The notes under the pieces were generated by a model that made no database searches, was not told the DNA's origin, and saw only the letters and a list, made by a program, of their open reading frames with translations. Positions 11,327 through 54,062 of a DNA stretch of 64,000 nt are shown piece by piece. This DNA comes from Marinitoga sp. 38H-ov (GTDB lineage Bacteria > Thermotogota > Thermotogae > Petrotogales > Petrotogaceae). Position 1 is the first letter of the stretch. The number at the start of each line of letters is the position of its first letter. The stretch is from the NCBI RefSeq assembly GCF_011057715.1, contig NZ_LNGH01000022.1, positions 1 to 64,000 on the forward strand. The letters run 5' to 3'. A program made the translations under genes and the position numbers.

Positions 11327-11340
11327 AATCACCCATTTTA
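11311..11340. terminator. Bidirectional terminator between ribF and fliD
   Basis: A 12-bp perfect stem (11311-11322 with 11329-11340) with a 6-base loop and T-runs on both sides. The stop codon of ribF sits in it and the stop of fliD overlaps its other end, so one element serves both convergent genes. Confidence 0.85.
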
Positions 11341-13176
11341 TTTTGAGAAAGCACTTGCTATCCAAGAACCTTGTTGCTGAATATTAGATATAGATTGTTC
11401 CATAGCTGAAAATTTTTGCCAATAATATGCTTCTTTTCGTTGGAGTTGATCGATTAAAGATGTCATTCTTTTAGCTATATCTCTCATTTCAAGACCAATA
11501 GTACCAGTAGTGCTAGAAATTTGGTCAATAGTTCCTCCGAATTTTGTAGTTTCCCATATATAATCCTTGAATTTTATGGCAATACCTTTATTATTATCAT
11601 CTTCGTATGCAAATAATTTCCAGATTTCTTCTGCATTATTTTGTATAGCCTCTTTAAGTTTATCTTCGTTAATTGATAAGATACCTTTCATAGTATTTTG
11701 ATAAGTTCCGCCGGCATCACCAGAAGTAATACCTATTTGATATAAGGAATTATAATTTGCATCGATATCAGATGTCCAAGAAACTACCCCGTATGCAATA
11801 TCCCTTAATTTATAAAATATATCTTCTAAGTTGCTATCTCCTTTTAAAACACCTTTTAATTTATCTTCTTCTGATAGAGTTTCACCCGTATTTGCTTCAA
11901 CAGCTTCTTCATTAAGTTTGTCATATATATATCCAATTATTTCATTATATTTATCAACAAATTCGCTAATTTTTTCATAAGTAGCTTCAGTATCTTGAGT
12001 AACTTGAACATCAACCCAATTTGTTGAAATAGATTTTAAATTTAATGTAATTCCATTGTATTCAACGGTATTTCCCCATGTAGTTTTTGTTAAATCAGCA
12101 ACACCATCTCCATCAAAATCAAACTCGACATTAGCGGCAGTACCAGGAGTTATAGTGCCTAAATAATTACCTGTTGAATCTATCCAAGATAAATCATCAA
12201 GTACATTTGTTAAATTACCACCAGAAGAGTCTCCGTCCTCTATTGTAATAGATTGAGGACCGCCATCTTTATTTCTAATCATTAATTTATCTTCATTTTC
12301 ATCATACCAAACAACAACATTAGCATTAGAAGAATTTATTCTAGCAATTAAAGAACTTATAGAATCAGTAGAACTTACGGTAATTTCGGTTCCATTTATT
12401 CTTATAATTCCAGAAGAGATATCAGAACTAATATCAGATAATGTTGTTGATTTACTTACTGCTCCAGCATGAACCGTACTTTCTATATAAGTTCCATTAT
12501 AATTTGCACCATTTAGATTAAAAACATCAATAAAATTACTTGTATCTGAGGAATCTCCAAGCAATATATTATTAACATTTCCTGTTTTATCTTCTATTTT
12601 TAACTTCCCGTTATTTAAGGAAGCTGTAAAATTAGTTGAAGTATTTATTTTATCTATTATATCTTGTATTGTATCAGTTCCTGAAAAAGAAAAGTTAAAA
12701 TTTTCAATAACGTTTCCACTTGAATCTAAAGCTTTAATAGTAAAGGTTCCAGCTACAGGGTTAGTTCTTCCGTTTAAATTATAAAACTGTGTTGTTAAAT
12801 CCGGAATATTACCCAATGTATTATTAGGTGTTAATGATGTAGAAGAAGATAAAGAATTTATTTTTGCTTTAAAACTAACATTACTTGTTGAAGCAGAAGC
12901 GGTAGCTGTTAATACATTTTCATCACTTACTTCAACATTTTTAGGAATTAAGTTATTTTTTAATTTAAAAGTAGCTAAAAAATCCCAAAAATCGCTTAAT
13001 TTACTATCAACTTCTTCCCAAGCTTTTTGCTTTAATTGTAATGTTTCAAAATCACTTTGTAATCTTTCTAGGGGTTTTCTTTCTATAGACATCAATTGGT
13101 CAACTATTGCAGATGTATCCAAACCACTTGAGATCCCTCCAAATTGAAAGGATCCAAGATAACTATTTTCACTCAT
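11338..13176 (-). CDS. fliD: Flagellar hook-associated protein 2 (filament cap)
   Basis: 612 residues. FliD caps the growing flagellar filament and folds exported flagellin. The N-terminal FliD domain has FGGISSGLDTSAIVDQLMSIERKPLERLQ, the usual start of the family. The centre is Ser/Thr/Asn-rich. The C-terminal domain has VDKYNEIIGYIYDKLNEE, DIAYGVVSW, YQIGITSG and the end with KRMTSLIDQLQRKEAYYWQKFSAMEQSISNIQ, which should form the coiled terminal helix. Follows flaG by 15 bases. Confidence 0.95.
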   Translation of the reverse strand: MSENSYLGSFQFGGISSGLDTSAIVDQLMSIERKPLERLQSDFETLQLKQKAWEEVDSKLSDFWDFLATFKLKNNLIPKNVEVSDENVLTATASASTSNVSFKAKINSLSSSTSLTPNNTLGNIPDLTTQFYNLNGRTNPVAGTFTIKALDSSGNVIENFNFSFSGTDTIQDIIDKINTSTNFTASLNNGKLKIEDKTGNVNNILLGDSSDTSNFIDVFNLNGANYNGTYIESTVHAGAVSKSTTLSDISSDISSGIIRINGTEITVSSTDSISSLIARINSSNANVVVWYDENEDKLMIRNKDGGPQSITIEDGDSSGGNLTNVLDDLSWIDSTGNYLGTITPGTAANVEFDFDGDGVADLTKTTWGNTVEYNGITLNLKSISTNWVDVQVTQDTEATYEKISEFVDKYNEIIGYIYDKLNEEAVEANTGETLSEEDKLKGVLKGDSNLEDIFYKLRDIAYGVVSWTSDIDANYNSLYQIGITSGDAGGTYQNTMKGILSINEDKLKEAIQNNAEEIWKLFAYEDDNNKGIAIKFKDYIWETTKFGGTIDQISSTTGTIGLEMRDIAKRMTSLIDQLQRKEAYYWQKFSAMEQSISNIQQQGSWIASAFSK

Positions 13177-13191
13177 TTGACTTCACCTCCG

Positions 13192-13551
13192 CTATGCGCG
13201 AGTGTCAAGAAAAATACCTTCTAATTTATCTAACATTTCAGCCATTTTCACAGCTGTTTCTGAAGGGATTTGTCTAATAATTTTTTTTGAATCTTTATCA
13301 ACTATTTTTACTATGATCATATCAATATCATTATCTACTTCAAATTTTACTTCGCCTTTAAATATTTCTTTGAGATTATTCAATTTTTCTTCTATAACCT
13401 TAGATAATTTTTGTCCATCAATATCTTCTTTATTATTCTTTTCATAATAATTCGTTTCCTTAATATTTTTAGTAGTTTTAATTGAAATATCTTTACTTAA
13501 AGAATCTAAAAAATTTGTAAAATCATTATTTATTCTATTCAAGTCACCCAT
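13192..13551 (-). CDS. flaG: FlaG-family flagellar protein
   Basis: 119 residues. The C-terminal FlaG domain ends IVKIVDKDSKKIIRQIPSETAVKMAEML, the family signature; the first half is polar and variable. FlaG is linked to filament length or assembly and is normally encoded next to fliD, as here. Ribosome binding site GGGGGTGAA. Upstream, a TAAA and a GATAA lie at roughly sigma-28-like distance, but the match is too loose to call a promoter. Confidence 0.85.
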   Translation of the reverse strand: MGDLNRINNDFTNFLDSLSKDISIKTTKNIKETNYYEKNNKEDIDGQKLSKVIEEKLNNLKEIFKGEVKFEVDNDIDMIIVKIVDKDSKKIIRQIPSETAVKMAEMLDKLEGIFLDTRA

Positions 13552-13625: not shown

Positions 13626-14459
13626 TTAATTAAAATAATTTGTTACAAAATAGTTAATAGTATCTTGGATTACAAAATCTTCAACATATACTCCCAAGGA
13701 AACAAAAGGTTTGTTTGATCCATGAAAATCACTTCCGGCGGTTATTAACAAACCATTTTTTCTTGCTAATTCTATTAAATAATTAGTATAATGAGGGTCA
13801 CTGGAATAATGGAAACATTCTATTCCATCTAAACCATAATCTTTTAATTCTTTAATTAAAGATTCTAATTGATTGTTTGAAATTCTAAGTTTTTTTGGAT
13901 GCGCAAGCACGGCTAATCCACCAGCTTTTTTAATAGCTTTAATTGTTTTTTTAGGGGAAAATTTAAATCTTTCTATATAACATCTTTTTCCTCTAGTTAA
14001 ATAATCTTCTATAATTTGACTTATAGATGTTCCATAACCCTTTTTTAATAGAATTCTAGCAATATGTGGTCTTCCTATTGTATATAATGAAACTCCTTCT
14101 AAATCCTCAATATCAATTTTAAATCCTTCTTTTTTTAACAATTCAATCATTAATTTATTTCTTTCAATTCTTTTGTTATATATGTTTTCTAAAAAAAAGT
14201 TTAAATAATCGTTATTAATATCTATATTATATCCTAATATATCCATTAATGTAGGAAATTCCGCATTTATTTCTACAGCAGGAATATAATTCAAATTTAT
14301 TTTTTTAGCAAATTCTAAAGCTTCAAATTGTCCTTTTATTGTATCGTGATCAGCAATTGAAAATAATTTTACTCCTAAATTTTTTGCTTTTTTTATTAAT
14401 TGTTTAGGAGATAATGTACCATCAGAATAAGAGCTATGGGTGTGTAAATCTAATAACAT
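13626..14459 (-). CDS. PHP-domain metal-dependent phosphoesterase
   Basis: 277 residues from the ATG at 14459, chosen because AGGAG lies seven bases before it; an in-frame ATG at 14486 would overlap the upstream gene without a good site. Motifs of the TrpH/YciV group: LDLHTHSSYSDGTLSP (metal ligands HxH), FSIADHDTIKG, PAVEINAEF, GRPHIA, LAVLAHPKK, and the C-terminal GSDFHG. These bind three metals. Known relatives hydrolyse AMP, 3'-phosphorylated nucleotides (pAp) or short RNA ends. Last gene of the long minus-strand run, 13 bases after the GGDEF protein. Substrate cannot be fixed from sequence. Confidence 0.85.
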   Translation of the reverse strand: MLLDLHTHSSYSDGTLSPKQLIKKAKNLGVKLFSIADHDTIKGQFEALEFAKKINLNYIPAVEINAEFPTLMDILGYNIDINNDYLNFFLENIYNKRIERNKLMIELLKKEGFKIDIEDLEGVSLYTIGRPHIARILLKKGYGTSISQIIEDYLTRGKRCYIERFKFSPKKTIKAIKKAGGLAVLAHPKKLRISNNQLESLIKELKDYGLDGIECFHYSSDPHYTNYLIELARKNGLLITAGSDFHGSNKPFVSLGVYVEDFVIQDTINYFVTNYFN

Positions 14460-14472
14460 AAATAAACTCCTC

Positions 14473-17400
14473 TCAAATAAACTCAAATCTATTTTTACCT
14501 GATTTTTTTGCTTTATATAATGCTATGTCAGCTTCTTTTATTAAATTATCAATTTTAGGTTCGTTTTTAATTTTTGATATTGAAGACAATCCCATGCTAC
14601 AGGTTATATTGAGATCAGTTGAAATATATAAATCTTTATTAATTTTGTTTAACAATCTAGACGCTATAACTTTTGCTTCATCAATTTTTGTATTTGGAAG
14701 AATAATTAAAAATTCCTCTCCGCCATATCGACATATTAAATCAAAATCCCTTAGATTTTCCTTTAAAGATTTTACTAATTCTACCAAAACTAAATCCCCT
14801 TTTTGATGACCATATTTATCATTTATTTTTTTAAAGTCATCTAAATCTATTAAGATAATGGAAAAATCAAAGTTATATCTTTCATATAATCCATATAATT
14901 CATTTAACTTATTTTCCATATATCTTCTTGTATAAGCGTTAGTTAAAGGATCAGAAATACTATGTTCGTAATGAGTAATTTTATCTAAAACTGAGTATAA
15001 AACATCTTCTAGAACTATTATATTATCTAATATATTAGATATTTCTAAAATATCTAATTCAATATTATCATTAGATATATAAATAGAATACTTATAATCA
15101 TTATTATTAGAAATATAAGATATTATAAACGGGTTTAAAATAAACAAATCTTTTTCAACATAATTTTCATTTAAATAGTTAAAATTATATTCGACTTCAA
15201 AATTATTTGTTATAACTTTAATTAATATTTTATCTAATGGGAATGATTGTCTTAGAAATTCTCCTATTTTTTCTACTATATGTTTAGGAGAGTCAATTTT
15301 AAGTAACTCAATAATTAAATCATTTATTTTTTCATAAAAAATTAATCTAGAAATTAAATTTTCATTCGATATTATATTATCATTTTTTAATGAAGGTAAA
15401 CCAAAATTAATTGATAAAAAATCTCCTATTTCATTAAATTTATTTTTCATTAAAAGGTCATCATATATTTTTTGAGCTTTTCTAAGGAATTTTAAAGATT
15501 TAAAACTTTCCTTTTTTTCATAATAAAATAATCCTAAACCTTCATATAATAAAGCTAATGATAGCTTTTTATCTTTGAATTCATTAATTAAATTATATAT
15601 CCATGTTTCAAATTCTTTATTAAATGAATATTTTGCAATCTTCGAAGAAATAATGTTAATCATTTCTTCTTTAAGGTAAATGAGAGGATTATTTTTGAAA
15701 AATAAGAATGACTCATACAAAATTTTTTCATCATCATATACAACTAAATTATATAAATGTTTTAAAAAATCATCGCTTTCAATAATTTTCATATATTTAT
15801 TATTGAACTTTTTTTTATTTTCAAATAAAGACTTTAAAACTAAAATATTATCTTTGATATGATTAAATGGTTCTTTAATATATTTTTTATTCTTAATATA
15901 TGATTCTATTCTCTTTAAATTGCTTAATAGATTTTGATAATCTTTAGAGTATAAAAAATAATAGTTTTTTATATCATTTGCCAAAAGGAAACTATTATAA
16001 TCATTGTTTAACTTAGAAGATTTTTCTGCTAAGTTAATTACATTGAAAAATTCATTTATATTGCCATTATATAATTTGTTTTCTGCAATATTTATTAAAG
16101 TTCTATTATATGTATAATAATCCCCAATATCTTTTGCAATATCAAGAACTTTATTATTATAATAATCAGAAAGATTAGAGTTTAAGGCTTTATATAGTAT
16201 AGCTAAATTAGCATAGACTATTTGAGTTAATCTTTTATAATTAGTTTCTAACGAAATCTTTAAGGAATTATTATAATACACAATAGACTTTTCTGGATGA
16301 TCATTTTCAAATTTAATACCTAATATATTTAATAACATTCCATTTAGTGTTTTAAATTTTTTAAGATTTGAATATTTTAAAAATATTTTTTCAAATAGCG
16401 AATAAAATTCTAAAATTTTTTCTTTAGTAAGCTCTGTAAAGTTAATACTTAAATAGTAATAAATATATAAAGCTTTTTTATAATCAGTTGTTTTTTTATC
16501 ATTAATTTGTTCGATTAAAATTTTGTTTAACTTATTTTTATCAGAAAATTTTAAAAATAAGTAATAAATATAATTATAAACTTTGTGTGTTTTAAGTTTT
16601 TCTAAATATATTTTTAATTCGTCACTATATTCGTTTAAAAAATATTTTTTTGATAGGTAAATAGCAATAGCTGAATACGGTACATTTTCAGTCATGTTTT
16701 TAATCTCATTAAATCCATAATCAATAAAGTTTAAATTCTTCCATTCAAATAATGATCTTTTCATTTCATTAATTATTAGTGCAATGGCAGACTTATAGTT
16801 ATTAGTGCTTTTTAGATGATATATTTTTTTATTTAAGGATGAGAATTTGCATAAGTAATTATGTATTTTATTTAATTCATCGATAGTTAATAAATCATGG
16901 AGTATTTTTTGATATAATAAATTAAAAAATCTATAGTTTTCTCTTTCTTTTAATATTATGTTGTTATCCAAAGCATATAATATAGAATAATCAAAATCTA
17001 TTTTTAAAAGGTCTTCTAATATTTTAATTTCTGAAATGCTAAATTTATACCCTAAAGCTGATAAATATTTTAAATCATTTTTTATATTTTCAGGAATAGT
17101 TTTAATCTTTTCAAATACAAAATCTTTAAACTTTTTATTTTTAATTTTTTCTGGATAAAAGAAGAATTTCTCTTTATTAAACTCAATAATATTTAAATCA
17201 AAGAAATCTTTAATTAATTGTATTATATTCCCTGGAAGACCATCAGATAAATTATATACAATGTCAACTATTTCAGGATATTCTTTTAAAAAGGATGATG
17301 ATAGAATAACATTTAATAGAATTTTTACATCTTTTAGATTAAATTTTTTAAGTTCTACATATTCAATATTGTTATATCTAATATCTGGTTGTGTATGTGA

Positions 17401-18405
17401 TAATAAAATAATTGAAAAAGGGAAATCAAAATCTTTAAGTAATAAATCCTCTATGAAATTTTTAAAATGAATATCAATATCTTGAAAATCATCAACTATT
17501 AATAATAGTTTTAAATTTTCATTTTCGCTTTTTAATTTATCAATGTAATTCAAAAAATCAAATATATTTATATTATTTTTATCAAATTCTGAAATTAAGT
17601 GATCACTATAAATTATAAAATATCCTAATTCTTTCATTTTATATTTCATAAAATCTATTAACTTAGTTTTACCTGAGCGTTGTGGCCCATATATAAATAA
17701 GTGTTTTTTCCCAAGATTATTTAAAATAATATTACGTTCAATATCACGATTAATAAAATGAGGATATCTAAAATGTTTATTAATGTTTTTATTTTTAATT
17801 TTTTTTAATATAATTTCATATAAATCGTGAACACAAAGAATTTTTTTTGATTTTAATAGGAGTAAAAATTCTTCAATATTTTTACTTTTATTTGGTAATA
17901 ATGAATATAATTTTTCAGACAGTTCTTTTAATGCTTCTATTAAACCTAATTCATTATTTCCATTATTTATTACAATATTATTATCATTTTTTGGTATAAA
18001 AATAGGAGCAAGCATACTTATATTCCCATTTTTATCAATGAAAATATCTTCAAGAGATATGTATTTAAAATTAAAGTTTGAAGAATGAACAATTCTATCA
18101 GAAATATCAAAAATAAAAAATAAAATATTATAATATTTTTCATCATTTAATGATGAATCTAATATTGGAACATCATCCCAATATTCACTATAAATATAAT
18201 ATTTTCCATTTTTATACTTAACCATTTCAGGGATAATTAAACCAATTTCTTTTAATGCTTCTAATTTATATATAATATTTTTATAATTATTATAATTAAA
18301 TACAGTACTTTCCGTGATTCTAACACGGAAAGTACTGTTATTTATTGTTTCAATATATTCTTTTCCAAAAGCTGTATTTCTAATAAACATTTCAAAATTT
18401 TCCAT
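14473..18405 (-). CDS. Giant signalling protein: pseudokinase, AAA/STAND ATPase, TPR-like region, GAF-like domain, diguanylate cyclase
   Basis: 1310 residues, apparently cytoplasmic (no membrane helix). Residues 1-140 look like a decayed protein kinase: hinge YYIYSEY and a catalytic-loop-like ISLEDIFIDKNGNISMLAP in which the catalytic Asp and DFG are missing. Residues 210-400 form a P-loop ATPase with Walker A GPQRSGKT (240-247) and Walker B LLLIVDDFQD (about 300-309). Residues 440-1000 are helical and TPR-like, typical of STAND regulators. Residues 1030-1140 resemble a GAF sensor. The C-terminal GGDEF domain has LIDLDDFKKINDKYGH, GGEEF (1228-1232) and an RxxD inhibitory site (RDFD, 1219-1222), so it should make c-di-GMP and be feedback inhibited. 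It lies between hppA and the PHP gene. A 15-bp perfect inverted repeat lies near the start of the gene. Confidence 0.85.
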   Translation of the reverse strand: MENFEMFIRNTAFGKEYIETINNSTFRVRITESTVFNYNNYKNIIYKLEALKEIGLIIPEMVKYKNGKYYIYSEYWDDVPILDSSLNDEKYYNILFFIFDISDRIVHSSNFNFKYISLEDIFIDKNGNISMLAPIFIPKNDNNIVINNGNNELGLIEALKELSEKLYSLLPNKSKNIEEFLLLLKSKKILCVHDLYEIILKKIKNKNINKHFRYPHFINRDIERNIILNNLGKKHLFIYGPQRSGKTKLIDFMKYKMKELGYFIIYSDHLISEFDKNNINIFDFLNYIDKLKSENENLKLLLIVDDFQDIDIHFKNFIEDLLLKDFDFPFSIILLSHTQPDIRYNNIEYVELKKFNLKDVKILLNVILSSSFLKEYPEIVDIVYNLSDGLPGNIIQLIKDFFDLNIIEFNKEKFFFYPEKIKNKKFKDFVFEKIKTIPENIKNDLKYLSALGYKFSISEIKILEDLLKIDFDYSILYALDNNIILKERENYRFFNLLYQKILHDLLTIDELNKIHNYLCKFSSLNKKIYHLKSTNNYKSAIALIINEMKRSLFEWKNLNFIDYGFNEIKNMTENVPYSAIAIYLSKKYFLNEYSDELKIYLEKLKTHKVYNYIYYLFLKFSDKNKLNKILIEQINDKKTTDYKKALYIYYYLSINFTELTKEKILEFYSLFEKIFLKYSNLKKFKTLNGMLLNILGIKFENDHPEKSIVYYNNSLKISLETNYKRLTQIVYANLAILYKALNSNLSDYYNNKVLDIAKDIGDYYTYNRTLINIAENKLYNGNINEFFNVINLAEKSSKLNNDYNSFLLANDIKNYYFLYSKDYQNLLSNLKRIESYIKNKKYIKEPFNHIKDNILVLKSLFENKKKFNNKYMKIIESDDFLKHLYNLVVYDDEKILYESFLFFKNNPLIYLKEEMINIISSKIAKYSFNKEFETWIYNLINEFKDKKLSLALLYEGLGLFYYEKKESFKSLKFLRKAQKIYDDLLMKNKFNEIGDFLSINFGLPSLKNDNIISNENLISRLIFYEKINDLIIELLKIDSPKHIVEKIGEFLRQSFPLDKILIKVITNNFEVEYNFNYLNENYVEKDLFILNPFIISYISNNNDYKYSIYISNDNIELDILEISNILDNIIVLEDVLYSVLDKITHYEHSISDPLTNAYTRRYMENKLNELYGLYERYNFDFSIILIDLDDFKKINDKYGHQKGDLVLVELVKSLKENLRDFDLICRYGGEEFLIILPNTKIDEAKVIASRLLNKINKDLYISTDLNITCSMGLSSISKIKNEPKIDNLIKEADIALYKAKKSGKNRFEFI
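18302..18338. repeat. Perfect 15-bp inverted repeat inside the GGDEF-protein gene
   Basis: Arms acagtactttccgtg (18302-18316) and its exact complement (18324-18338), loop of 7 bases. It encodes residues about 23-35 of the protein, 68-104 bases after the start codon. The mRNA would form a stable hairpin there. Confidence 0.85.
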
Positions 18406-18419
18406 TGTAAAAACTCCGG

Positions 18420-20588
18420 TTAAAAAATATGATATATTTTAAATACAGAAACAGTTATTAAAGATGTCACAGCCATAATTTTTATCAATATATCTAATGA
18501 AGGTCCTACAGTATCTTTTAGTGGATCTCCAACAGTATCACCAACTACAGAAGCTTTATGAGCATCTGTGCCTTTACCTTCACCTTCTAGATTTCCATTT
18601 TCAATGTATTTTTTTGCGTTATCCCAGGCACCTCCAGAATTTGCTGTATAAATAGCTAACATAACACCGCTAAATGTTGTCCCAGCTAAAAGACCGCCAA
18701 CAAAATCTGTTCCAAAAATAAATCCTGATATTAGAGGTGTTAAAACAGCAATTAATGCAGGTGTTTTCATTTCTTTTAATGCACCGTCACTACTAATTTT
18801 AATACATCTATTATAATCTGGTTTTGCAGTTCCTTCCATCAAGCCAGGGATTTCCTTAAATTGTCGTCTAACTTCTTGTACCATCTTTTCAGCAGCATTT
18901 ACAACGGCATCAATTAAATATGCACTAAAGAAATATGGTAAAGCCGCTCCAAAAAGAGCACCAGCAATTGTCCTTGGATTAATTAAATTAATATTTAAAA
19001 AGCTATTTAAATCTAATTTCATTGATGGGTTAATTTGAGAATAAACATATGATGCAAATAATGATAATGCGGCAAATGCAGCAGAACCTATAGCAAATCC
19101 TTTTCCAATTGCTGCAGTAGTATTTCCTACAGAATCAAGGCTATCAGTTATTTTTCTAACTTCTTCTTCCAAATTAGACATTTCACTAATACCGCCTGCA
19201 TTATCAGCAATTGGACCATATGAATCAACAGATACTGTAGCAGCTACAAAGGATAACATTCCCATTGCAGCCATAGCAACTCCATATAATCCAGCAAAAT
19301 AATTTGATAATAATATTCCAAACATTAACATAAAAACTGGATATAAGACGCTTTTCATTCCTAAAGCCATTCCTTTTGATATAACAATAGCTGGTCCACC
19401 TTTTGCAAAATTAGCTAGTTCTTTAGTAGGGGTAAATTTATCGCTGGTATAATATTCAGCTAAAATACCTATTATTATACCAGAAAAAATTCCAACTATT
19501 GCAGAAAGCCATGGTGAGTATATACCATATCTAAAATTCATTAAATTTAAATCATTTTTAGGTAAATCGCCTAGATAATATATACTTAAGAAAAAGGTCA
19601 AAATAATAGTAATTGTAGCTGACGAAAATAATGAAATATTTAATTCTTTATGAGGGTTATTAGAACTTTTTTTAATTATTACATATAATATTCCTATCAT
19701 AGCTCCTATAAGTCCTAAACTTGCAAATAAAACTGGATAAATAGATAATTTAAATGTTGTTATATATGAAACTTCCATTGTTTCTCTAGAAATTAAAAAA
19801 CTAGCATACAATACTAAAATTACAGAAGAAATTATCGCTCCTATATAACTTTCTAACAAATCAGCTCCCAAACCAGCGACGTCTCCAACATTATCTCCAA
19901 CATTATCTGCTATAGTAGCAGGATTTCTTGCGTCATCTTCAGGTAAAGCTAATTCTGTTTTTCCAACAAGATCAGCCCCCATATCTGCAGCTTTTGTATA
20001 TATTCCACCACCAACCCTATCAAACATAGCTATTATAGAACAACCTAACGCATATCCTGAAATGGTCATAGCAAATGGAATATAACTTATTCCTAACCAA
20101 TTTTTTATAACAATAATATTCTCTTTGTCGAGTTGCCCTTTCCAAATACCAAAAACAATATATACAATTATCAGACCAAATAAAGCAAAACCAGCAACAG
20201 AAAGTCCCATTACACTGCCGCCCTTAAATGCAACTTTTAAAGTTTTACCAATGTCTTTGGTATTTCTAGCAGTGTTAGAAACTCTTACATTAGCATGAGT
20301 AGCCATTTTCATGCCGATGTATCCGGCACTACCACTCATTAATGCTCCTAAAATAAATGCAATTCCTACATTAATATCGGTTATAATTATTAGTATAATC
20401 GAGATAAAAACAATATATAATCCTACTGTTTTATACTCATGGTTTATAAAAGTGTTAGCGCCTTCTCTAATAGCTTTAGCAACTTCCTTCATTTTAACTG
20501 TACCTTCGTCGAGTTTTAAAACAGAAAAATAATTTAACATCGCAAAAAATAGTGCTAATAATGGGATTAGCATAACATAATATAACAT
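18420..20588 (-). CDS. hppA: Membrane-bound ion-pumping pyrophosphatase, K+-dependent type
   Basis: 722 residues and about 16 membrane helices. Hydrolyses PPi and pumps Na+ and/or H+ across the membrane. The substrate loop reads DMGADLVGKTELALPEDD and is followed by NPATIADNVGDNVGDVAG; the C-terminal acidic motif is KASVVGDTVGDPLKDTVGPSLDIL. Around residue 485 it has GNTTAAIGKGF. Ala after GNTTA marks the K+-dependent subfamily, while K+-independent proton pumps have Lys; the K+-dependent group includes the Na+ pump of Thermotoga. Ribosome binding site CAGGAGGGGAG. Lies 55 bases after the tandem HD gene, with no terminator between. Confidence 0.96.
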   Translation of the reverse strand: MLYYVMLIPLLALFFAMLNYFSVLKLDEGTVKMKEVAKAIREGANTFINHEYKTVGLYIVFISIILIIITDINVGIAFILGALMSGSAGYIGMKMATHANVRVSNTARNTKDIGKTLKVAFKGGSVMGLSVAGFALFGLIIVYIVFGIWKGQLDKENIIVIKNWLGISYIPFAMTISGYALGCSIIAMFDRVGGGIYTKAADMGADLVGKTELALPEDDARNPATIADNVGDNVGDVAGLGADLLESYIGAIISSVILVLYASFLISRETMEVSYITTFKLSIYPVLFASLGLIGAMIGILYVIIKKSSNNPHKELNISLFSSATITIILTFFLSIYYLGDLPKNDLNLMNFRYGIYSPWLSAIVGIFSGIIIGILAEYYTSDKFTPTKELANFAKGGPAIVISKGMALGMKSVLYPVFMLMFGILLSNYFAGLYGVAMAAMGMLSFVAATVSVDSYGPIADNAGGISEMSNLEEEVRKITDSLDSVGNTTAAIGKGFAIGSAAFAALSLFASYVYSQINPSMKLDLNSFLNINLINPRTIAGALFGAALPYFFSAYLIDAVVNAAEKMVQEVRRQFKEIPGLMEGTAKPDYNRCIKISSDGALKEMKTPALIAVLTPLISGFIFGTDFVGGLLAGTTFSGVMLAIYTANSGGAWDNAKKYIENGNLEGEGKGTDAHKASVVGDTVGDPLKDTVGPSLDILIKIMAVTSLITVSVFKIYHIF

Positions 20589-20643: not shown

Positions 20644-21735
20644 TTAATTAAAAAATGTAATTTTTTCTATTTCATCAATTAAATCATATAAGAAATCAAA
20701 GTCATATTTTTTTAATTCTTTTTTCATATTAAAAAATGCTTCTCTAAAAATAGTTTGTGAATTTCCAGAACTTATTTCAATAGCGCATTCAAGCATTGCA
20801 TTAAATATATCAGATGATCTAACATATTTTCCATATTCATCATCAAAAGGATTAATCATATGATTTTTAAAAGTGTTAAATATTATAGCAGTATCATTAT
20901 CATTTTTAAACCATTCTTCAATCATTTCTTCTTCAATTGAAGAGATTATATTTTCTAATCCTTTAACTTTTTTCTTAGTAGGAGTTATAACATCTCCAGT
21001 AAAGGATTCAGGAAAATCATGTAAAATACTTGCAATTATTATATCTTCTAATAATTTTTCATCAGAATTATTGTTTAAATGATAAAAAATAATGGATGAT
21101 GATACAACCATAAAAGTATGAGAAGAAACTGAGCTTTTTATATTCCTATGATTTTTGTTCCATCTATACATAGTAGTCATTCTTGTAGAAGCTTTTAAAA
21201 CATAACTTAAAATACTTTCTAATTCATTAATATAAGGTAATTCAAGCCTTATTAATCTTAATTTTTTTTCAGTTTCTTCTTTAGGTATATTAAAATATTC
21301 AGGATATATTCTGCTATTTATTTCAATTTCTTTTAAAGAAACCATTAAATCAATAAAATTAGCATATTTTTCAAATTCCTTGTCATATTCAGATTTAAAG
21401 AAATCAATAATTTTTTGTTCTTTAAGTTCGTTATAACTTTTTTCAATAACTTCATCCCAAATTTTATTATCTTTTTGAACAATCCTATTTTTTGTATCCA
21501 AAGATACGTCGGATAGAATAATCTTTGGAAGTTCTTTATAAATCTTAGCTTTAATGTTTTTAGTAATAGAAAATTTTTGTCCTTTTCTATTTAAATATTC
21601 AATAGAAACTAACGTTAAAAGTAAACTATGATATACATTATCGGCTTCTGTAAATCTTAATAAAGCCGGTCTGTTATTCCACCTAAAAATAGTAAATAAA
21701 TTTGTTAAGTTGTAGATACTTTTACCTAAACCCAT
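20644..21735 (-). CDS. Tandem HD-domain (YfbR-like) protein with a degenerate first copy
   Basis: 363 residues from the ATG at 21735, which has GGGTGAT just upstream; a GTG at 21747 is also possible. The second half carries a recognisable YfbR-like HD set: MYRWNKN, SVSSHTFMV, ASILHDFPESFTGDVITPTKKK, and SDIFNAMLE. YfbR relatives are metal-dependent 5'-deoxynucleotidases. The first half has a faint copy (FRWNNRPALLRF, EADNVYHSLLL) that has lost the HD pair and is probably structural, like half of an internally duplicated dimer. Its start overlaps or abuts the end of holA, suggesting coupling. Substrate is inferred only from the family. Confidence 0.75.
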   Translation of the reverse strand: MGLGKSIYNLTNLFTIFRWNNRPALLRFTEADNVYHSLLLTLVSIEYLNRKGQKFSITKNIKAKIYKELPKIILSDVSLDTKNRIVQKDNKIWDEVIEKSYNELKEQKIIDFFKSEYDKEFEKYANFIDLMVSLKEIEINSRIYPEYFNIPKEETEKKLRLIRLELPYINELESILSYVLKASTRMTTMYRWNKNHRNIKSSVSSHTFMVVSSSIIFYHLNNNSDEKLLEDIIIASILHDFPESFTGDVITPTKKKVKGLENIISSIEEEMIEEWFKNDNDTAIIFNTFKNHMINPFDDEYGKYVRSSDIFNAMLECAIEISSGNSQTIFREAFFNMKKELKKYDFDFLYDLIDEIEKITFFN

Positions 21736-21739
21736 ATTA

Positions 21740-22708
21740 TCACCCACATATATCTAAAATTATATTCATAAAAATTAAATCTTTATTTTCTCCAATTTTA
21801 GCCAATCTATCATATTCCTCAAGTTTAATAATTATATCCATAAGATCTTTTTTGGTATAAAATAAAGTGTGGTTAGCATAAAATTCCTTTTCGTTTTTAA
21901 AACGAATACCTAGAAATTTTTTTACTCTCATTTTAGAAACCTTAGTATCTTGAGATAATTTTTGTGCCTCAGGCCAGCTAAACTTTTTTTTAGGTTCTAT
22001 ATTAATTATAACACGATATAGATCTAAAAAATAATTAAATAAAAACCAAATAAAAGGAGTTAAGTTAAAATCTGGATTTGATAGATATTTTTTTGCTAAT
22101 TCTAAGACTTCTTCTTTTCTTTTTGAAGATAGTAAATAAGCAAAATTCTCAAAATCAATATTTGAATATAAATAACCTATTTCCTTTATATCTTCTATAT
22201 TAATATTATTATCAGAATATATAGATAATTTTTTAATTTCTTCAAATAAATAAATATCATTATAACCATATAAGTTTAATAAATACTCTGCTGCATTATC
22301 GTTTATATCTGTGTTAAAAAATAAAGCAATTTCTTTAATAAACTTTATCCATTTATCTTCTTCCCAATGTTTTGGTAATGAACAATCTAAAATATCATCG
22401 AATTTTATTTTTAATTTAGAAGAATCATTTGTAATGATTAAAACATCTATATTTTCAGATGAAAAGTCTTTTATTTGATCTAAAATTGTATTTTTTATTT
22501 TTTCGGAAAATTTATTAATATCTTCAATTAAAATATTTTTTTTATCTCCAAATAATGAGTTTGACATTAAATTATTGTTTAATTCTTCGATTGGGTTTTT
22601 TAATGATTTTGAAATTTTTATCAAAGATCCATCAGAGTTTTTTATCAAATTTTTTATTGTAATATTTTTTTTTATTTGAGAATCACCGTATATTAGTATT
22701 TTTTTCAT
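21740..22708 (-). CDS. holA: DNA polymerase III delta subunit (clamp loader)
   Basis: 322 residues from the ATG at 22708 (MKKILIYGDSQ). AGGAG lies nine bases before this ATG, while an earlier in-frame ATG at 22717 abuts it. Delta opens the sliding clamp. The N-terminal domain has the weak P-loop-like IYGDSQIKKN and the segment NPIEELNNNLMSNSLFGDKKNILIED, where the clamp-binding hydrophobic residues LF are typical of the family. The C-terminal helical domain reads NPDFNLTPFIWFLFNYFLDLYRV. Similarity is moderate, as usual for this fast-evolving subunit. Overlaps the PBP gene by 26 bases. Confidence 0.8.
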   Translation of the reverse strand: MKKILIYGDSQIKKNITIKNLIKNSDGSLIKISKSLKNPIEELNNNLMSNSLFGDKKNILIEDINKFSEKIKNTILDQIKDFSSENIDVLIITNDSSKLKIKFDDILDCSLPKHWEEDKWIKFIKEIALFFNTDINDNAAEYLLNLYGYNDIYLFEEIKKLSIYSDNNINIEDIKEIGYLYSNIDFENFAYLLSSKRKEEVLELAKKYLSNPDFNLTPFIWFLFNYFLDLYRVIINIEPKKKFSWPEAQKLSQDTKVSKMRVKKFLGIRFKNEKEFYANHTLFYTKKDLMDIIIKLEEYDRLAKIGENKDLIFMNIILDICG

Positions 22709-24386
22709 CAAATTCATCTCCTAATATTAGTATAACATAATCAATTTTATTTAAATCATAAGATTTATCTGGCTTTTGATCAATGATATAATTTCCATTC
22801 CCAGATAAAACTATTTTATTTTCATTTATACCCAATGATTTTAATATGAATAATGCTTCGGAAATAGATTTTCCTTTTAAATTTGGAAGATAACCATTAA
22901 TTATGTTAACTTTATTTGATTCAGAATAATTCTCTAATCTATAAAAAATATTTGTTGCAACTGGAGCAGCAACTTCTCCTCCATAATATTCTTTTTTTGG
23001 ATCATCGATAATTGAAACAATTGTATATTTTGGTTTTGAGGCTGGAAAAAAACCAACAAATAATGAATAATATTTGTCTGAATAACCTTCTCCGGAAATT
23101 GCTTTTTGTGCAGTTCCTGTTTTACCAGCAATTAAAACACCAGGTTTATATGCAGTTCTGGCAGTCCCTTTTAACATAGTATACCTCAACCAATCTTTCA
23201 TTAGATTAGAGGTTTCTGGTGAAAAAACTTGAATATCTTTTATAGCATTATTTTCTAAAAATGTAGGTTTTACATATTTTCCATCATTAGCAAAAACATT
23301 AAAAATTGAAACAAGTTGTATAGGAGTAACTCCAATACCTTGACCTATAGCTATTTGGTAAGGGGTAATTTTATACCAATTTTCTGGTTCTGGTAGTATT
23401 CCAGAAATTTCCTTATTAAACTCAACACCGGTTTTTTTCCCGAAACCCATTAATTCTAATTTGTTATATAACCATTCATTTGAAAAATTATTCATTATTT
23501 TTTTCATAACTTGTACCGCAGCAACATTAGATGAATAAGCAATTGCGTCTTTTGCATCCAATGTGTCAAAATGATGTCCTTCTGCTTCGCCAATAGTGAA
23601 ATTAATATTAGGAACAGGAGAAATATAAGGAGTTAAATCAAATTTTTGATAAGGCGAAATAATGCCTTCTTCTAAAGCAATGGCAAAGATTAGAGGTTTT
23701 ATTGTAGAACCTGGCTCAATATAACCCATAAAAGCCATATTCCAAGGATAATTAGAAACAGCAGCTCTTATCTTTCCTGTTTTAGTTTCTAAAATAATAA
23801 CAGTACCACCTTCAGCATCTTGTTCTTTAATCATTTTAGATAATTCTTCATAAGCAATTTTTTGCATTTTTAAATCTAATGATAAATTTATCTTATCATA
23901 ATCATTTAAAATACCTATATTATATAAATATGGTTCTATTCCATATTCTGTTTTATTTAATTCTCCTATATTTTTTCTTAGGCCAAAAGATGTATTATAA
24001 TTTCTTTCATATGTTAAATATGTTTTAGAATATTTTAAAATATTTTTAGGTAAATAAGTATTGATTTCAAGATTATCATCATATTTTCCTAATAAAATAT
24101 AATTTTTATTAAAATCATCATCATTTAATAATTTTTCCAAATCAGATTTTAATGAATCTAATTTGTTTCTATTTTTTATAGTTTTTAAATCTAACCAAAC
24201 TTCATATATAGTTTTATCTATAGCAATAATACGACCTTCTTTATCAACTAAGGTCGCTAATTTATTTCCGCTAATATTTATTTTATTATTTTCTTTAATT
24301 GAATATGGTCTTAAAATTAAAATATAGGAAATTAAAGATATATAAAGAATAATAATAATGAAGAATATTAAACTAATTCTTTGCAC
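22683..24386 (-). CDS. ftsI: Class B penicillin-binding protein (FtsI/SpoVD-like) with a PASTA domain
   Basis: 567 residues. Peptidoglycan transpeptidase anchored by one N-terminal membrane helix (about 5-26). All three active-site motifs are intact: STIK (Ser227, Lys230), SSN (285-287) and KTGT (422-425). The C-terminal ~65 residues (LPNLKGKSISEALFILKSLG... ) form a PASTA domain that binds muropeptides or beta-lactams. Start is GTG; the GGAGG site lies within the end of the ftsL-like gene. Position after rsmH and the FtsL-like gene marks it as the septal enzyme. Overlaps holA. Confidence 0.92.
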   Translation of the reverse strand: MQRISLIFFIIIILYISLISYILILRPYSIKENNKINISGNKLATLVDKEGRIIAIDKTIYEVWLDLKTIKNRNKLDSLKSDLEKLLNDDDFNKNYILLGKYDDNLEINTYLPKNILKYSKTYLTYERNYNTSFGLRKNIGELNKTEYGIEPYLYNIGILNDYDKINLSLDLKMQKIAYEELSKMIKEQDAEGGTVIILETKTGKIRAAVSNYPWNMAFMGYIEPGSTIKPLIFAIALEEGIISPYQKFDLTPYISPVPNINFTIGEAEGHHFDTLDAKDAIAYSSNVAAVQVMKKIMNNFSNEWLYNKLELMGFGKKTGVEFNKEISGILPEPENWYKITPYQIAIGQGIGVTPIQLVSIFNVFANDGKYVKPTFLENNAIKDIQVFSPETSNLMKDWLRYTMLKGTARTAYKPGVLIAGKTGTAQKAISGEGYSDKYYSLFVGFFPASKPKYTIVSIIDDPKKEYYGGEVAAPVATNIFYRLENYSESNKVNIINGYLPNLKGKSISEALFILKSLGINENKIVLSGNGNYIIDQKPDKSYDLNKIDYVILILGDEFDEKNTNIR

Positions 24387-42647: not shown

Positions 42648-42838
42648 TCCTTTTTAATAATATTTCATACTATATTATACATGTAATTTATCTTAATACT
42701 GTTAAAATTAGGTCAAAAAAGGATTTCGTACAAGTAATAAAATTAAAACAATTTTGAGGTTAATTAATTGTAAACAAATTATTTTAAATAGAAAAAAATA
42801 AATTTTTATTGTATAATAAATTTGATGGGGGTGTTATA

Positions 42839-44515
42839 GTGAATAAAAAATATTTGAGAAATATATTATATACAAATTCTATTGTAATAATATTTTTTAT
42901 GGGAATATTTATGATTATATCAATATTTATATCTACAAATATTTTATTTAAAAAAATATATAACTCTACTATACAAAATTCTGTTAAATCTATATCTGAT
43001 CTATATAATAAAAACATGAAATATTTTGAATATTTTAGTACAAAATACCAAAATATTATATCAGAATTATTAGATGAATCATATAGTAATTATATAAATA
43101 ATGAACAGTTTTATTCAAATGAAATAATAGAAATTTTAAATAAAGTAGGAATCTTTAAAAGAATTGATTACTATATAATAAATAAAAATGGAATAATTAT
43201 TGAAACAAGTTATGAAAAAGATTTGGGACTTAATTTGGCTAATAGAGTACCAAATTATTGGAATAACTTAATAGAGGAATTAAATAAAACTAATAAATAT
43301 ATTGAAGGAATTTCTTTTGAAATAAAAACAAATAATCCAAGGATTTATGGATATTTAAAAATGGATGATGGTAATATATTTGAAATAGGTGTATTAATTG
43401 ATGAAAGAGCAATACCGAATTTTCCTAAAACAGTCTCTGAAATTAATTTAAATTTTATTAAATCTATTTATACTTACAATATTTCTTTTATACCTTTTTC
43501 TTTAGATTTTCCGTTTTTAGGTGATGAAGATAAAGATATTTTTAATAATTTGGAATATTCTAAAGGTGAAATAAAAACATATTACTTAAAAGAAAGCTCT
43601 GATGGTAAATATTCTTATGTATATATTAAATGGATTCCAGATATTATTGAAGGTAAAGAATTTAATTTTTCTGTATTAACAAAAATAAGTATTGATTTAT
43701 CAAATTTAGTTAGATTGAAAAATATTATAATTTTTATTCTTCTAATAATAATATTTTTTATAATATTCTTATTAACATTATATCTTAGTAATATAACCAA
43801 AAAGATAGAGAGACCATTATTAAAATTAATAAAGAATATTGAAGATGGAAAAATAGATGAAAAGTTTGAAACAAATATATTAGAAATAGATACTTTAATA
43901 AAATATTATACTCATTTAGTGAATAGTTTAATAGAAAAATTGAAAATTGAAGAAAAGGAATATAATATTTTAAAGGAAAAATTATTAAATATAGAAAAAG
44001 AAAAAGATTTGCTATATGATATGGCATTAAAAGATGATTTAACAAAATTATTTAATAAGAAGGGGTCTATTCAAATAATACAGAAGTTAATATTGAATAA
44101 AGAGAATTTTAGTGTAATATATTTAGAACTAGATAATTACAATAGCATATTAGAAAAATTTGGGGTTAATGAGGCTAATGATGCTATAATTTCATTGGTT
44201 GAAGTTATGAAAAAAATATTTAGAGAGAGAGATTTTATATTTAAGATTGATGAAAATGAATTTTTAATTTTATTGAGATTAGTAAATATTGAAATTGCAC
44301 AAAAAATATTAAAAAGATTTGTAGATGCTTTAAAAAAATTTAATATAACTAGTGATAAGCAGTATAAAATTTCAATAAGTTATGGTATTATTGAATATAA
44401 AGATCAAAGTGTTGAGGGTATTTTTGAAGATGCAAGAAAAAAGATGGAAATAATGAAAAAGAAAAAAATTGAGTTATTAAAAAGAATAACAGATAATAAT
44501 CAGGAGGATGATTAA
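42839..44515 (+). CDS. Membrane sensor with a degenerate GGDEF domain
   Basis: 558 residues from the GTG at 42839, which follows GGGGGTGTTATA; an ATG at 42809 lacks a site. One membrane helix near the N-terminus (IIFFMGIFMIISIFIS), a ~240-residue extracytoplasmic sensor region with Cache-like features, a second helix (IIIFILLIIIFFIIFLLTLYL), a HAMP-like linker and coiled coil. The GGDEF domain begins LKDDLTKLFNKKGS but its active-site loop is DENEF in place of GGDEF and the metal-binding segment is LELDNYNSILEKFG, so it should be inactive as a cyclase. An RxxD motif (RERD) lies exactly five residues before the loop, the normal I-site position, so it may bind c-di-GMP as a receptor. The stop overlaps the next start. 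Confidence 0.82.
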   Translation: MNKKYLRNILYTNSIVIIFFMGIFMIISIFISTNILFKKIYNSTIQNSVKSISDLYNKNMKYFEYFSTKYQNIISELLDESYSNYINNEQFYSNEIIEILNKVGIFKRIDYYIINKNGIIIETSYEKDLGLNLANRVPNYWNNLIEELNKTNKYIEGISFEIKTNNPRIYGYLKMDDGNIFEIGVLIDERAIPNFPKTVSEINLNFIKSIYTYNISFIPFSLDFPFLGDEDKDIFNNLEYSKGEIKTYYLKESSDGKYSYVYIKWIPDIIEGKEFNFSVLTKISIDLSNLVRLKNIIIFILLIIIFFIIFLLTLYLSNITKKIERPLLKLIKNIEDGKIDEKFETNILEIDTLIKYYTHLVNSLIEKLKIEEKEYNILKEKLLNIEKEKDLLYDMALKDDLTKLFNKKGSIQIIQKLILNKENFSVIYLELDNYNSILEKFGVNEANDAIISLVEVMKKIFRERDFIFKIDENEFLILLRLVNIEIAQKILKRFVDALKKFNITSDKQYKISISYGIIEYKDQSVEGIFEDARKKMEIMKKKKIELLKRITDNNQEDD

Positions 44516-53086: not shown

Positions 53087-53628
53087 TGAAAAAAATTCTT
53101 TTTATTTTTTTTATTGTTTTTTCAATAATATCTTTTTCTATAAATTTTGATATAGGTATGTCTATTTTAACTGGTGAAAATAACTGGAATATGGGATTAA
53201 GATTAGGGCTGGAAGAGAATAACTTTGAATTTTCCAGCGATATTACGTATGTTAGTACGCCTAGTTTTTCTTTTATTACAGTTTTAGATGTTAGTACTTC
53301 GATTTTGAAAATAAATGAATATAGTAATGTGGATTTTGGAATATCGTGGTTTAATGATAGAATAACAGAAGAAGCTACTGAAAATAGAAGTGTATTTTTA
53401 ATGTATTCTGGTTTAAAAATTAAATTGGAAAATATTGCTTTAAAAGCAGGATTTGGTTATCCATTATCTCAAGAAACATATTCAACAAATTTATCAGATT
53501 ATATATTTTTTAAAATTAGTTATATAGTTCCACCGCCAGATGATTTTATAGATGATTTGAAATTAGAATTTAGGTTTATTAATGGAAGAAAAGATTTTTC
53601 ATTATATTTTTCGGAGCCTATTAGATGA
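53086..53628 (+). CDS. Exported beta-rich protein of unknown function
   Basis: 180 residues; start GTG overlaps the rpoZ stop. A signal peptide (MKKILFIFFIVFSIISFS) is followed by alternating beta segments (FDIGMSILTG, MGLRLGLEENNFEFSSDITYV, FITVLDVSTSILKI, NVDFGISWF, VFLMYSGLKIKLENIALKAGFGYPLS, LKLEFRFINGRKDFSLYFS). This looks like a small outer-membrane barrel, in keeping with the toga envelope. A second signal-peptide protein of similar character lies at 48532. Its coupling to rpoZ may be positional only. Confidence 0.7.
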   Translation: MKKILFIFFIVFSIISFSINFDIGMSILTGENNWNMGLRLGLEENNFEFSSDITYVSTPSFSFITVLDVSTSILKINEYSNVDFGISWFNDRITEEATENRSVFLMYSGLKIKLENIALKAGFGYPLSQETYSTNLSDYIFFKISYIVPPPDDFIDDLKLEFRFINGRKDFSLYFSEPIR

Positions 53629-54062
53629 AAAAAGGGTATTTAATGTTAGAAGCAGCTTTTTCGATTATATTAATATCTATAATATCCATAATTGTCCTTG
53701 CATTTTTTGCAAGGACAATTATTATGTTTGATGAAATTTTAAATATGGAATTTAAAAGAATTAATGTTGAAAATTCTTTAGTAAATTTATTTAGATTTTT
53801 AAGAGATGATATTAAGGTTGATACAGTAAAATTTAAAGATATTGGGTACAAAAAATATTTTGAATTTTATAGAAAAAATAATGAAAAGCTGCAATTAGAA
53901 AAAAGTTCTAATTATTTAAAAATGATTTTTATAGATGAATATAATAGAAAAACAATAGAATATTTATATACAGGTAAAATAATTGATATAAATAAAAGAG
54001 ATAATATGTTAGAATTTCAATTTGAAGATTATTTTTTAAATATTTATTCCAAGGAGTGGTAA
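53625..54062 (+). CDS. Type IV pilin-like (pseudopilin) protein
   Basis: 145 residues. N-terminus MKKGYLMLEAAFSIILISIISIIVLAFF has the class III signal: a short basic leader, Gly as cleavage site, then YLMLE with Glu at mature position 5 and a hydrophobic helix. The rest is polar and mostly helical with beta segments at the end. Likely a minor pilin or pseudopilin of a pilus, secretion or DNA-uptake system, which fits comF two genes downstream. The ATG overlaps the previous stop. A perfect 15-bp hairpin lies in the part encoding the helix. Confidence 0.72.
   Translation: MKKGYLMLEAAFSIILISIISIIVLAFFARTIIMFDEILNMEFKRINVENSLVNLFRFLRDDIKVDTVKFKDIGYKKYFEFYRKNNEKLQLEKSSNYLKMIFIDEYNRKTIEYLYTGKIIDINKRDNMLEFQFEDYFLNIYSKEW
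53688..53722. repeat. Perfect 15-bp inverted repeat inside the pilin-like gene
   Basis: Arms ataattgtccttgca (53688-53702) and its exact complement (53708-53722), loop of five T. It lies 64-98 bases after the start codon. A stem of this length should be stable in the mRNA even at high temperature. Confidence 0.85.

Follow-up and report, generated by a model that had tools for sequence, protein, structure and literature searches.

What does a single protein do that carries a kinase-like domain at one end, a cyclase domain at the other and a P-loop ATPase in between? The question is raised by a gene in a 64,000-nucleotide stretch of Marinitoga sp. 38H-ov (positions 1 to 64,000 of contig NZ_LNGH01000022.1; hereafter "the window"), the product of which we call P0001. 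The gene is one uninterrupted open reading frame (ORF) of 1310 codons on the minus strand, with its ATG at position 18405 and its stop at 14473 (14473..18405), in agreement with the length given in an original prediction made from the DNA sequence. Because full-length relatives exist in other genera and families, this ORF is not a chance one. From the ORF and its full-length homologues we describe P0001 as a pseudokinase–STAND–TPR–GGDEF protein. Its most likely function is that of a cytosolic, signal-gated diguanylate cyclase, and we consider it probable that this soluble enzyme is controlled by its STAND (NLR/MalT-like) ATPase. All features of this locus given below are on the minus strand.

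The GGDEF diguanylate cyclase domain spans residues 1149–1306 (14488..14961), with a Pfam E-value of 1.4e-42 and a PDB match to PleD at 1.6e-26. Its GGEEF active-site loop (residues 1228–1232; 14710..14724) is kept in 49 of 50 homologues, with one gap, and the inhibitory I-site RxxD (R1219–D1222; 14740..14751) has its Arg in all 50 and its Asp in 49. The predicted GGEEF motif and intact I-site were thus found as described. Residues D1187, D1196 and D1204 are retained, like GGEEF, in 49–50 of the 50 homologues, and N1195 is invariant in 20; the metal Asp and the guanine-binding Asn/Asp expected of a diguanylate cyclase are present. Judged by these residues, the domain holds everything required for GTP-specific synthesis of cyclic di-GMP (c-di-GMP) and for product inhibition. 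In GGDEF enzymes, an Asp at the position equivalent to D1204 accompanies GTP-only substrate use, and the expected product is therefore c-di-GMP, not cyclic GMP-AMP. With 16 GGDEF matches, 20 HD_5 matches (HD-GYP type) and a single PilZ match, the genome has a c-di-GMP network, in which P0001 would be one cyclase among many. A second GGDEF protein is encoded on the plus strand of the window (42809–44515, an ORF of 568 residues, E = 2e-20).

In P0001 itself, GGDEF alone scores above its Pfam cut-off, and the regions N-terminal to it were therefore tested through relatives. The STAND nucleotide-binding domain (NBD) was placed at residues 218–420 (17146..17754) from PDB profile matches and the domains of homologues. 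The NBD profile matched the plant NLRs Roq1 and Sr35 in the PDB with E-values of 1.6e-5 to 3e-5, covering the NBD and beyond, and homologues of P0001 match AAA_16, nSTAND and NB-ARC. The Walker A motif GPQRSGKT (residues 240–247; 17665..17688) has G240, G245 and K246 in 50 of 50 homologues, the Walker B region (17488..17508) ends in D305 (50/50) and D306 (46/50), and the STAND GxP motif SDGLPG (residues 387–392; 17230..17247) has G389 and G392 in 50/50 and P391 in 46/50; overall, Walker A, the DD pair (305–306) and GxPG (389–392) are retained in 45–50 of the 50. The winged-helix-like region that follows (residues 421–560; 16726..17145) matches STAND proteins of another phylum with E-values down to 2e-13. 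By sequence, P0001 therefore has the defining marks of a STAND protein: Walker A, Walker B, GxP and a winged-helix-like region after the NBD. The STAND-type P-loop ATPase of the original prediction is conserved family-wide.

Between the STAND core and the cyclase, residues 561–1014 (15364..16725) form a TPR-like helical arm or sensor; the predicted TPR-like helices are recognizable in relatives, where TPR_12 was found in 10 of 20 homologues (best E = 1.3e-12), but are sub-threshold in P0001 itself. Residues 1015–1148 (14962..15363) constitute a linker or sensor domain that is GAF-like at best, with no firm match. The GAF-like sensor previously assigned here could not be established: the PDB searches gave no GAF match, and GAF_3 was matched by 2 of 35 homologues at E ≈ 0.09.

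The kinase-likeness of the N-terminus is visible only through profiles. By hhalign and PDB profile matches, a degenerate protein-kinase domain comprises residues 1–205 (17791..18405); the kinase-like region proposed earlier was correct in kind, but its extent is about 1–205 instead of 1–140. A profile of 41 homologues was aligned with a profile of 28 bacterial kinases, drawn from seven genomes of other lineages, at E = 5.7e-7 (92% probability), compared to E = 0.35 for the reversed-sequence control. The alignment is colinear through both lobes, with residues 2–200 of P0001 matching positions 21–269 of the kinase profile. Another profile (A6), built from 11 divergent homologues, matched 70 PDB entries at E < 1, the best at 5.5e-5; among the 60 matches listed, 58 were protein kinases and one was the kinase-homology region of a guanylyl cyclase, with matching registers. 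The profile of 41 homologues gave weaker PDB matches than A6, still mostly to kinases.

The residues expected of an active kinase are missing from this domain. The position of the VAIK Lys is R29 in P0001 (Lys in 27 and Arg in 13 of the 41 homologues), that of the HRD Asp is Y115, with Asp in none of the 41, and that of the catalytic-loop Asn is D120, with Asp in 39; DFG is absent, its place falling within a gap of the profile alignment. The APE motif and the αI Arg are kept in many relatives, as are the αF positions, and APE has been lost in the source genus. Since the catalytic Asp is missing in all 41 homologues and DFG falls in the gap, residues 1–205 are, by sequence, a pseudokinase without catalytic residues, as had been proposed. 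P0001's own genome has no PF00069 match, and thus encodes no canonical kinase of that family as a partner for P0001.

The family was surveyed across related genomes (families, genera, genomes and loci of the survey are denoted f, g, G and L). When the proteins of 61 related genomes were searched, full-length homologues turned up within the genus, the family and the class, and a phylum-wide profile search gave strong matches in 56 of 103 genomes; the raw tally of 100 of 103 was inflated by generic P-loop matches, and only the strong ones were counted. In that search, the family was not found in several genera (e.g., g3, g4 and g7), and families f2, f5, f6, f7 and f9 yielded merely weaker, partial or P-loop matches. 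Scans of named genomes found no full-length homologue and at most GGDEF-domain matches. Shorter GGDEF proteins in f2 and f5 have the C-terminal half in common with P0001; at L022, L025, L027 and L035–L040, the N-terminus of such proteins is different or missing. In a tree of 50 members, each of six families forms one branch with 100% SH-aLRT support, which implies vertical inheritance. Within the genus, non-synonymous divergence (dN) is well below synonymous divergence (dS) for all domains, including the pseudokinase. By these measures, the family is old, phylum-wide and vertically inherited, and no one-off fusion. Literature searches found no paper on it.

Genomes usually have one full-length copy. 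In ten f10 genomes, a tandem paralogue (open frame of 1244–1298 residues) lies directly upstream of the main gene (L171, L182, L188, L193–L195, L197, L200, L202 and L203). It has lost the P-loop and the I-site and kept GGEEF, and looks like a putative regulatory or non-inhibited partner. In G003, the cyclase copy (L210) is broken by stop codons, and pyrophosphatase matches are spread over several frames; the split copy reflects either sequencing error or decay.

The P0001 gene is part of a same-strand run consisting of rsmH/mraW, a small ORF, a penicillin-binding protein gene, a HolA-like gene, an HD-domain gene, a pyrophosphatase gene, the P0001 gene, a PHP gene, flaG and fliD. Its location between pyrophosphatase and phosphoesterase genes was correctly predicted. 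The former, a membrane pyrophosphatase (18420..20588; PF03030, 5e-249; NF001954 above cut-off), is 14 nt upstream of the P0001 ORF, and the latter, a PHP phosphoesterase (13626..14486), overlaps it by 14 nt. The PHP protein is RNase AM- or nucleoside-bisphosphatase-like; it matches the 5'-3' exoribonuclease RNase AM (PDB 7ug9) at 1.7e-32, and falls under the curated cut-offs of RNase RNM and nucleoside-bisphosphatase alike. Farther upstream are the HD-domain (YfbR-like) gene (20644..21747; PF12917, 1.1e-22) and a division-type penicillin-binding protein with PASTA (22683..24386; PF00905, 1.8e-57; PF03793). The P0001 gene had been placed at the end of this division run, but the run continues on the same strand with flaG (13192..13551; PF03646, 1e-20) and fliD, encoding the flagellar cap (11338..13176; PF07195, 2e-45).

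Gene order in the run is conserved within the genus, except that in G002 the pyrophosphatase is absent at the locus while the cyclase remains. Outside the genus the neighbours differ, with a DHH/DHHA1 phosphodiesterase gene in most families, and the suggested link to cell division and pyrophosphate was not upheld; sensing of pyrophosphate, considered as a candidate, is likewise unsupported. The flaG gene is near the cyclase gene in 11 f1 loci. Besides the genus, four genomes of the family (G007, G010, G011 and G016) have it adjacent or with one gene between, and in G045 (f4) it is in the vicinity. A DHH/DHHA1 phosphodiesterase gene is upstream of the cyclase in 36 of 36 loci of f3, f10 and f11, preceding the tandem pair in f10 genera g24 and g31; in one genome of the same class, this neighbour matches Thermotoga maritima TmPDE (TM1595 family) with 638 bits. 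A stand-alone DHHA1 protein of ≈330 residues, present in most congeners, was not found in this genome, where an assembly gap is possible. NrnA-type DHH/DHHA1 enzymes act on very short RNAs, and work cited in the same paper reports that pGpG is degraded by a subset of exoribonucleases (PMC9757072). The shared theme may be a dinucleotide-cyclase gene beside a gene for a small-nucleotide phosphodiesterase of unrelated fold, which is suggestive only. The neighbours point to nucleotide-signal turnover and, in the source genus, to flagella.

The P0001 ORF also contains a perfect 15-bp RNA hairpin with a 7-nt loop, 67–103 nt from its start (18302..18338), which is found at identical codons of the cyclase gene in six of seven genus genomes. 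Elsewhere in these genomes the core pattern recurs just once, in G001 and with a single mismatch. Fold z-scores range from −3.4 to −7.7, compared to −0.4 in the genome without the hairpin. In the stem, 8 of 15 pairs are invariant, seven additional standard pair types are seen, and two pairs have changed on both sides; when the pairing partner was slid along, pairing dropped from 90% to ≤54%. A shuffle control was suggestive only (46/500), which is to be expected from six close sequences. In the five aligned members, TTC, CGT and ACG, all of them less-used codons, do not vary, and ACG occurs once in the entire P0001 gene. The coding reading is safe here, because the hairpin is flanked on either side by residues of the conserved N-lobe. 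Rfam gave no match for the hairpin. The hairpin is present in all six genomes in which the pyrophosphatase is directly upstream, and G002 lacks both. Our best guess is that it serves as a transcription attenuator or as a 3'-end protector of the pyrophosphatase message, located within the next ORF and opened by translation of that ORF. Elsewhere in the window, another perfect 15-bp stem with a loop of 5 (53688–53722) lies inside an ORF (53625–54062), ≈63 nt past its start, a position like that of the cyclase hairpin; this could be a second case of that arrangement, or the ORF could have been called wrongly.

How might these parts work together? At rest, the ADP-bound STAND core would be closed and the GGDEF domains kept apart. 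A signal, either a protein or a small ligand, would be sensed via the pseudokinase and/or the TPR arm, with the pseudokinase serving as a binding or scaffold module and not as an enzyme. The signal would permit exchange of ADP for ATP and oligomerisation of P0001, which would pair the GGDEF domains, and c-di-GMP would be made until the I-site stopped synthesis. The pairing of GGDEF domains by STAND opening and oligomerisation is proposed by analogy to MalT and NLRs, following the STAND activation model (PMC4381067). The c-di-GMP output probably sets motile versus sessile behaviour. Breakdown of small nucleotides would be genetically tied to the cyclase gene through the DHH/DHHA1 phosphodiesterase in three families, a role that the RNase AM-like PHP enzyme may fill at the P0001 locus.

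Several points weigh against this model. The kinase homology is remote: no member of the P0001 family passes the curated kinase cut-off, and when only seven close kinases were used, the hhalign match was weak, the E-value of 5.7e-7 being reached with the broader set. Single-sequence AlphaFold2 prediction of residues 1–640 gave no usable fold (predicted local distance difference test score of 36). The sensor domain at residues 1015–1148 is poorly defined and has no assigned fold, and the neighbour evidence is correlative. The original prediction had called P0001 a soluble, ligand-triggered c-di-GMP switch; the anatomy behind that idea is conserved across the phylum, whereas the ligand, oligomerisation and cyclase activity are what we infer.

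We considered whether residues 1–205 could be an unrelated sensor fold with a chance resemblance to kinases in profile searches. The failure to reach the curated cut-off would fit, but the colinear, full-length alignment with its far weaker reversed control, the retention of APE, αF and αI Arg positions in many homologues, the matching registers of the A6 hits, almost all of them kinases, and the occurrence of kinase-like domains ahead of a related STAND core in proteins of a different phylum make this very unlikely. Less improbable, yet still unlikely, is that the P-loop ATPase is a slow sensor of ATP or energy charge, whose nucleotide state sets the cyclase while the kinase and TPR parts merely hold the dimer together. 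In favour of this, the P-loop is intact in 50 of 50 homologues and a pyrophosphatase adjoins the gene in this genus; however, that neighbour is not conserved beyond the genus, nor in G002, and the combination of GxP, a winged-helix-like region and an extended TPR-like arm is how STAND proteins are usually laid out for ligand sensing.

The flow of information could also be reversed, with the GGDEF domain serving chiefly to bind c-di-GMP at its I-site, as a receptor, and the output coming from the STAND core, which might, for example, scaffold proteins of the flagellum or envelope. Signal transduction commonly converges on STAND cores, and RxxD at the I-site was retained in 49/50 homologues. Receptor GGDEFs, however, usually lose the catalytic and metal residues, all of which are kept here, and the f10 tandem paralogue retained GGEEF despite losing the I-site and P-loop; we regard this as decidedly improbable. 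Finally, STAND NTPases are generally known to be common in defence, and P0001 might be an anti-phage protein with c-di-GMP as the alarm. PADLOC found nothing in P0001 and gave weak matches, confined to the P-loop, in two homologues; vertical inheritance in all six families and housekeeping neighbours also argue against this reading, and we reject it as very improbable.

The signal-gated cyclase that we favour is a genuine, conserved and unusual signalling protein, although in kind, its parts and the way they are arranged are known. What is new in this family is that kinase catalysis has been lost throughout the phylum, that STAND and cyclase are coupled, that the gene is linked to genes for phosphodiesterases and that a hairpin, which was unexpected, is embedded in it. 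A more far-reaching reading, which we find possible but doubtful, would make it a phylum-conserved, NLR-like oligomerising second-messenger synthase with a dead kinase as receptor, paired in f10 with the copy lacking P-loop and I-site, and its expression in the source genus set by the hairpin within its own coding sequence. If the favoured model is true, the STAND/NLR switch, known from transcription and immunity, gates c-di-GMP synthesis as well, and a bacterial pseudokinase is part of the sensor. A direct test can be made of whether a STAND oligomer turns on a cyclase that depends on dimerisation; thermophiles very probably number among the hosts of the family, and their stable proteins lend themselves to structural studies, while its Thermotoga-type members adjoin an enzyme of solved structure (TM1595).

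Among known systems, the T. maritima diguanylate cyclase is presumably a different and much smaller protein with no pseudokinase or STAND part. Like P0001, it belongs to the GGDEF cyclases; it is reported to be under feedback inhibition (PMC4215984) and is probably from the same phylum. A Clostridium thermocellum protein of 1826 residues with a kinase domain, six TPRs and GGDEF was reported in 2005 (PMC1262709). Likened by description, it shares with P0001 the N-terminal kinase domain, the TPR repeats and the C-terminal GGDEF, but was described as a kinase, with a pseudokinase and STAND core unreported. In another phylum (the group of G107), large STAND-type proteins match the NBD and winged-helix-like region, and in L267 and L273 the related STAND core is fused to a kinase-like domain at the N-terminus. 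In L267, this domain directly precedes the NBD and winged-helix-like region, as in P0001, and has an atypical catalytic loop (HGGVKPHN) without the HRD Asp, but the protein has a histidine-kinase-like end and no GGDEF. PleD and other GGDEF cyclases have all catalytic and I-site residues in common with P0001. PleD is driven by phosphorylation via its REC domains, whose place is occupied in P0001 by the STAND core. MalT and plant NLRs share with P0001 the P-loop, Walker B, GxP, winged helix and helical arm, and PknK-type proteins combine a kinase with a MalT-like protein (PMC1262709); all of these act through DNA binding, phosphorylation or cell death, whereas in P0001 the output is a cyclase.

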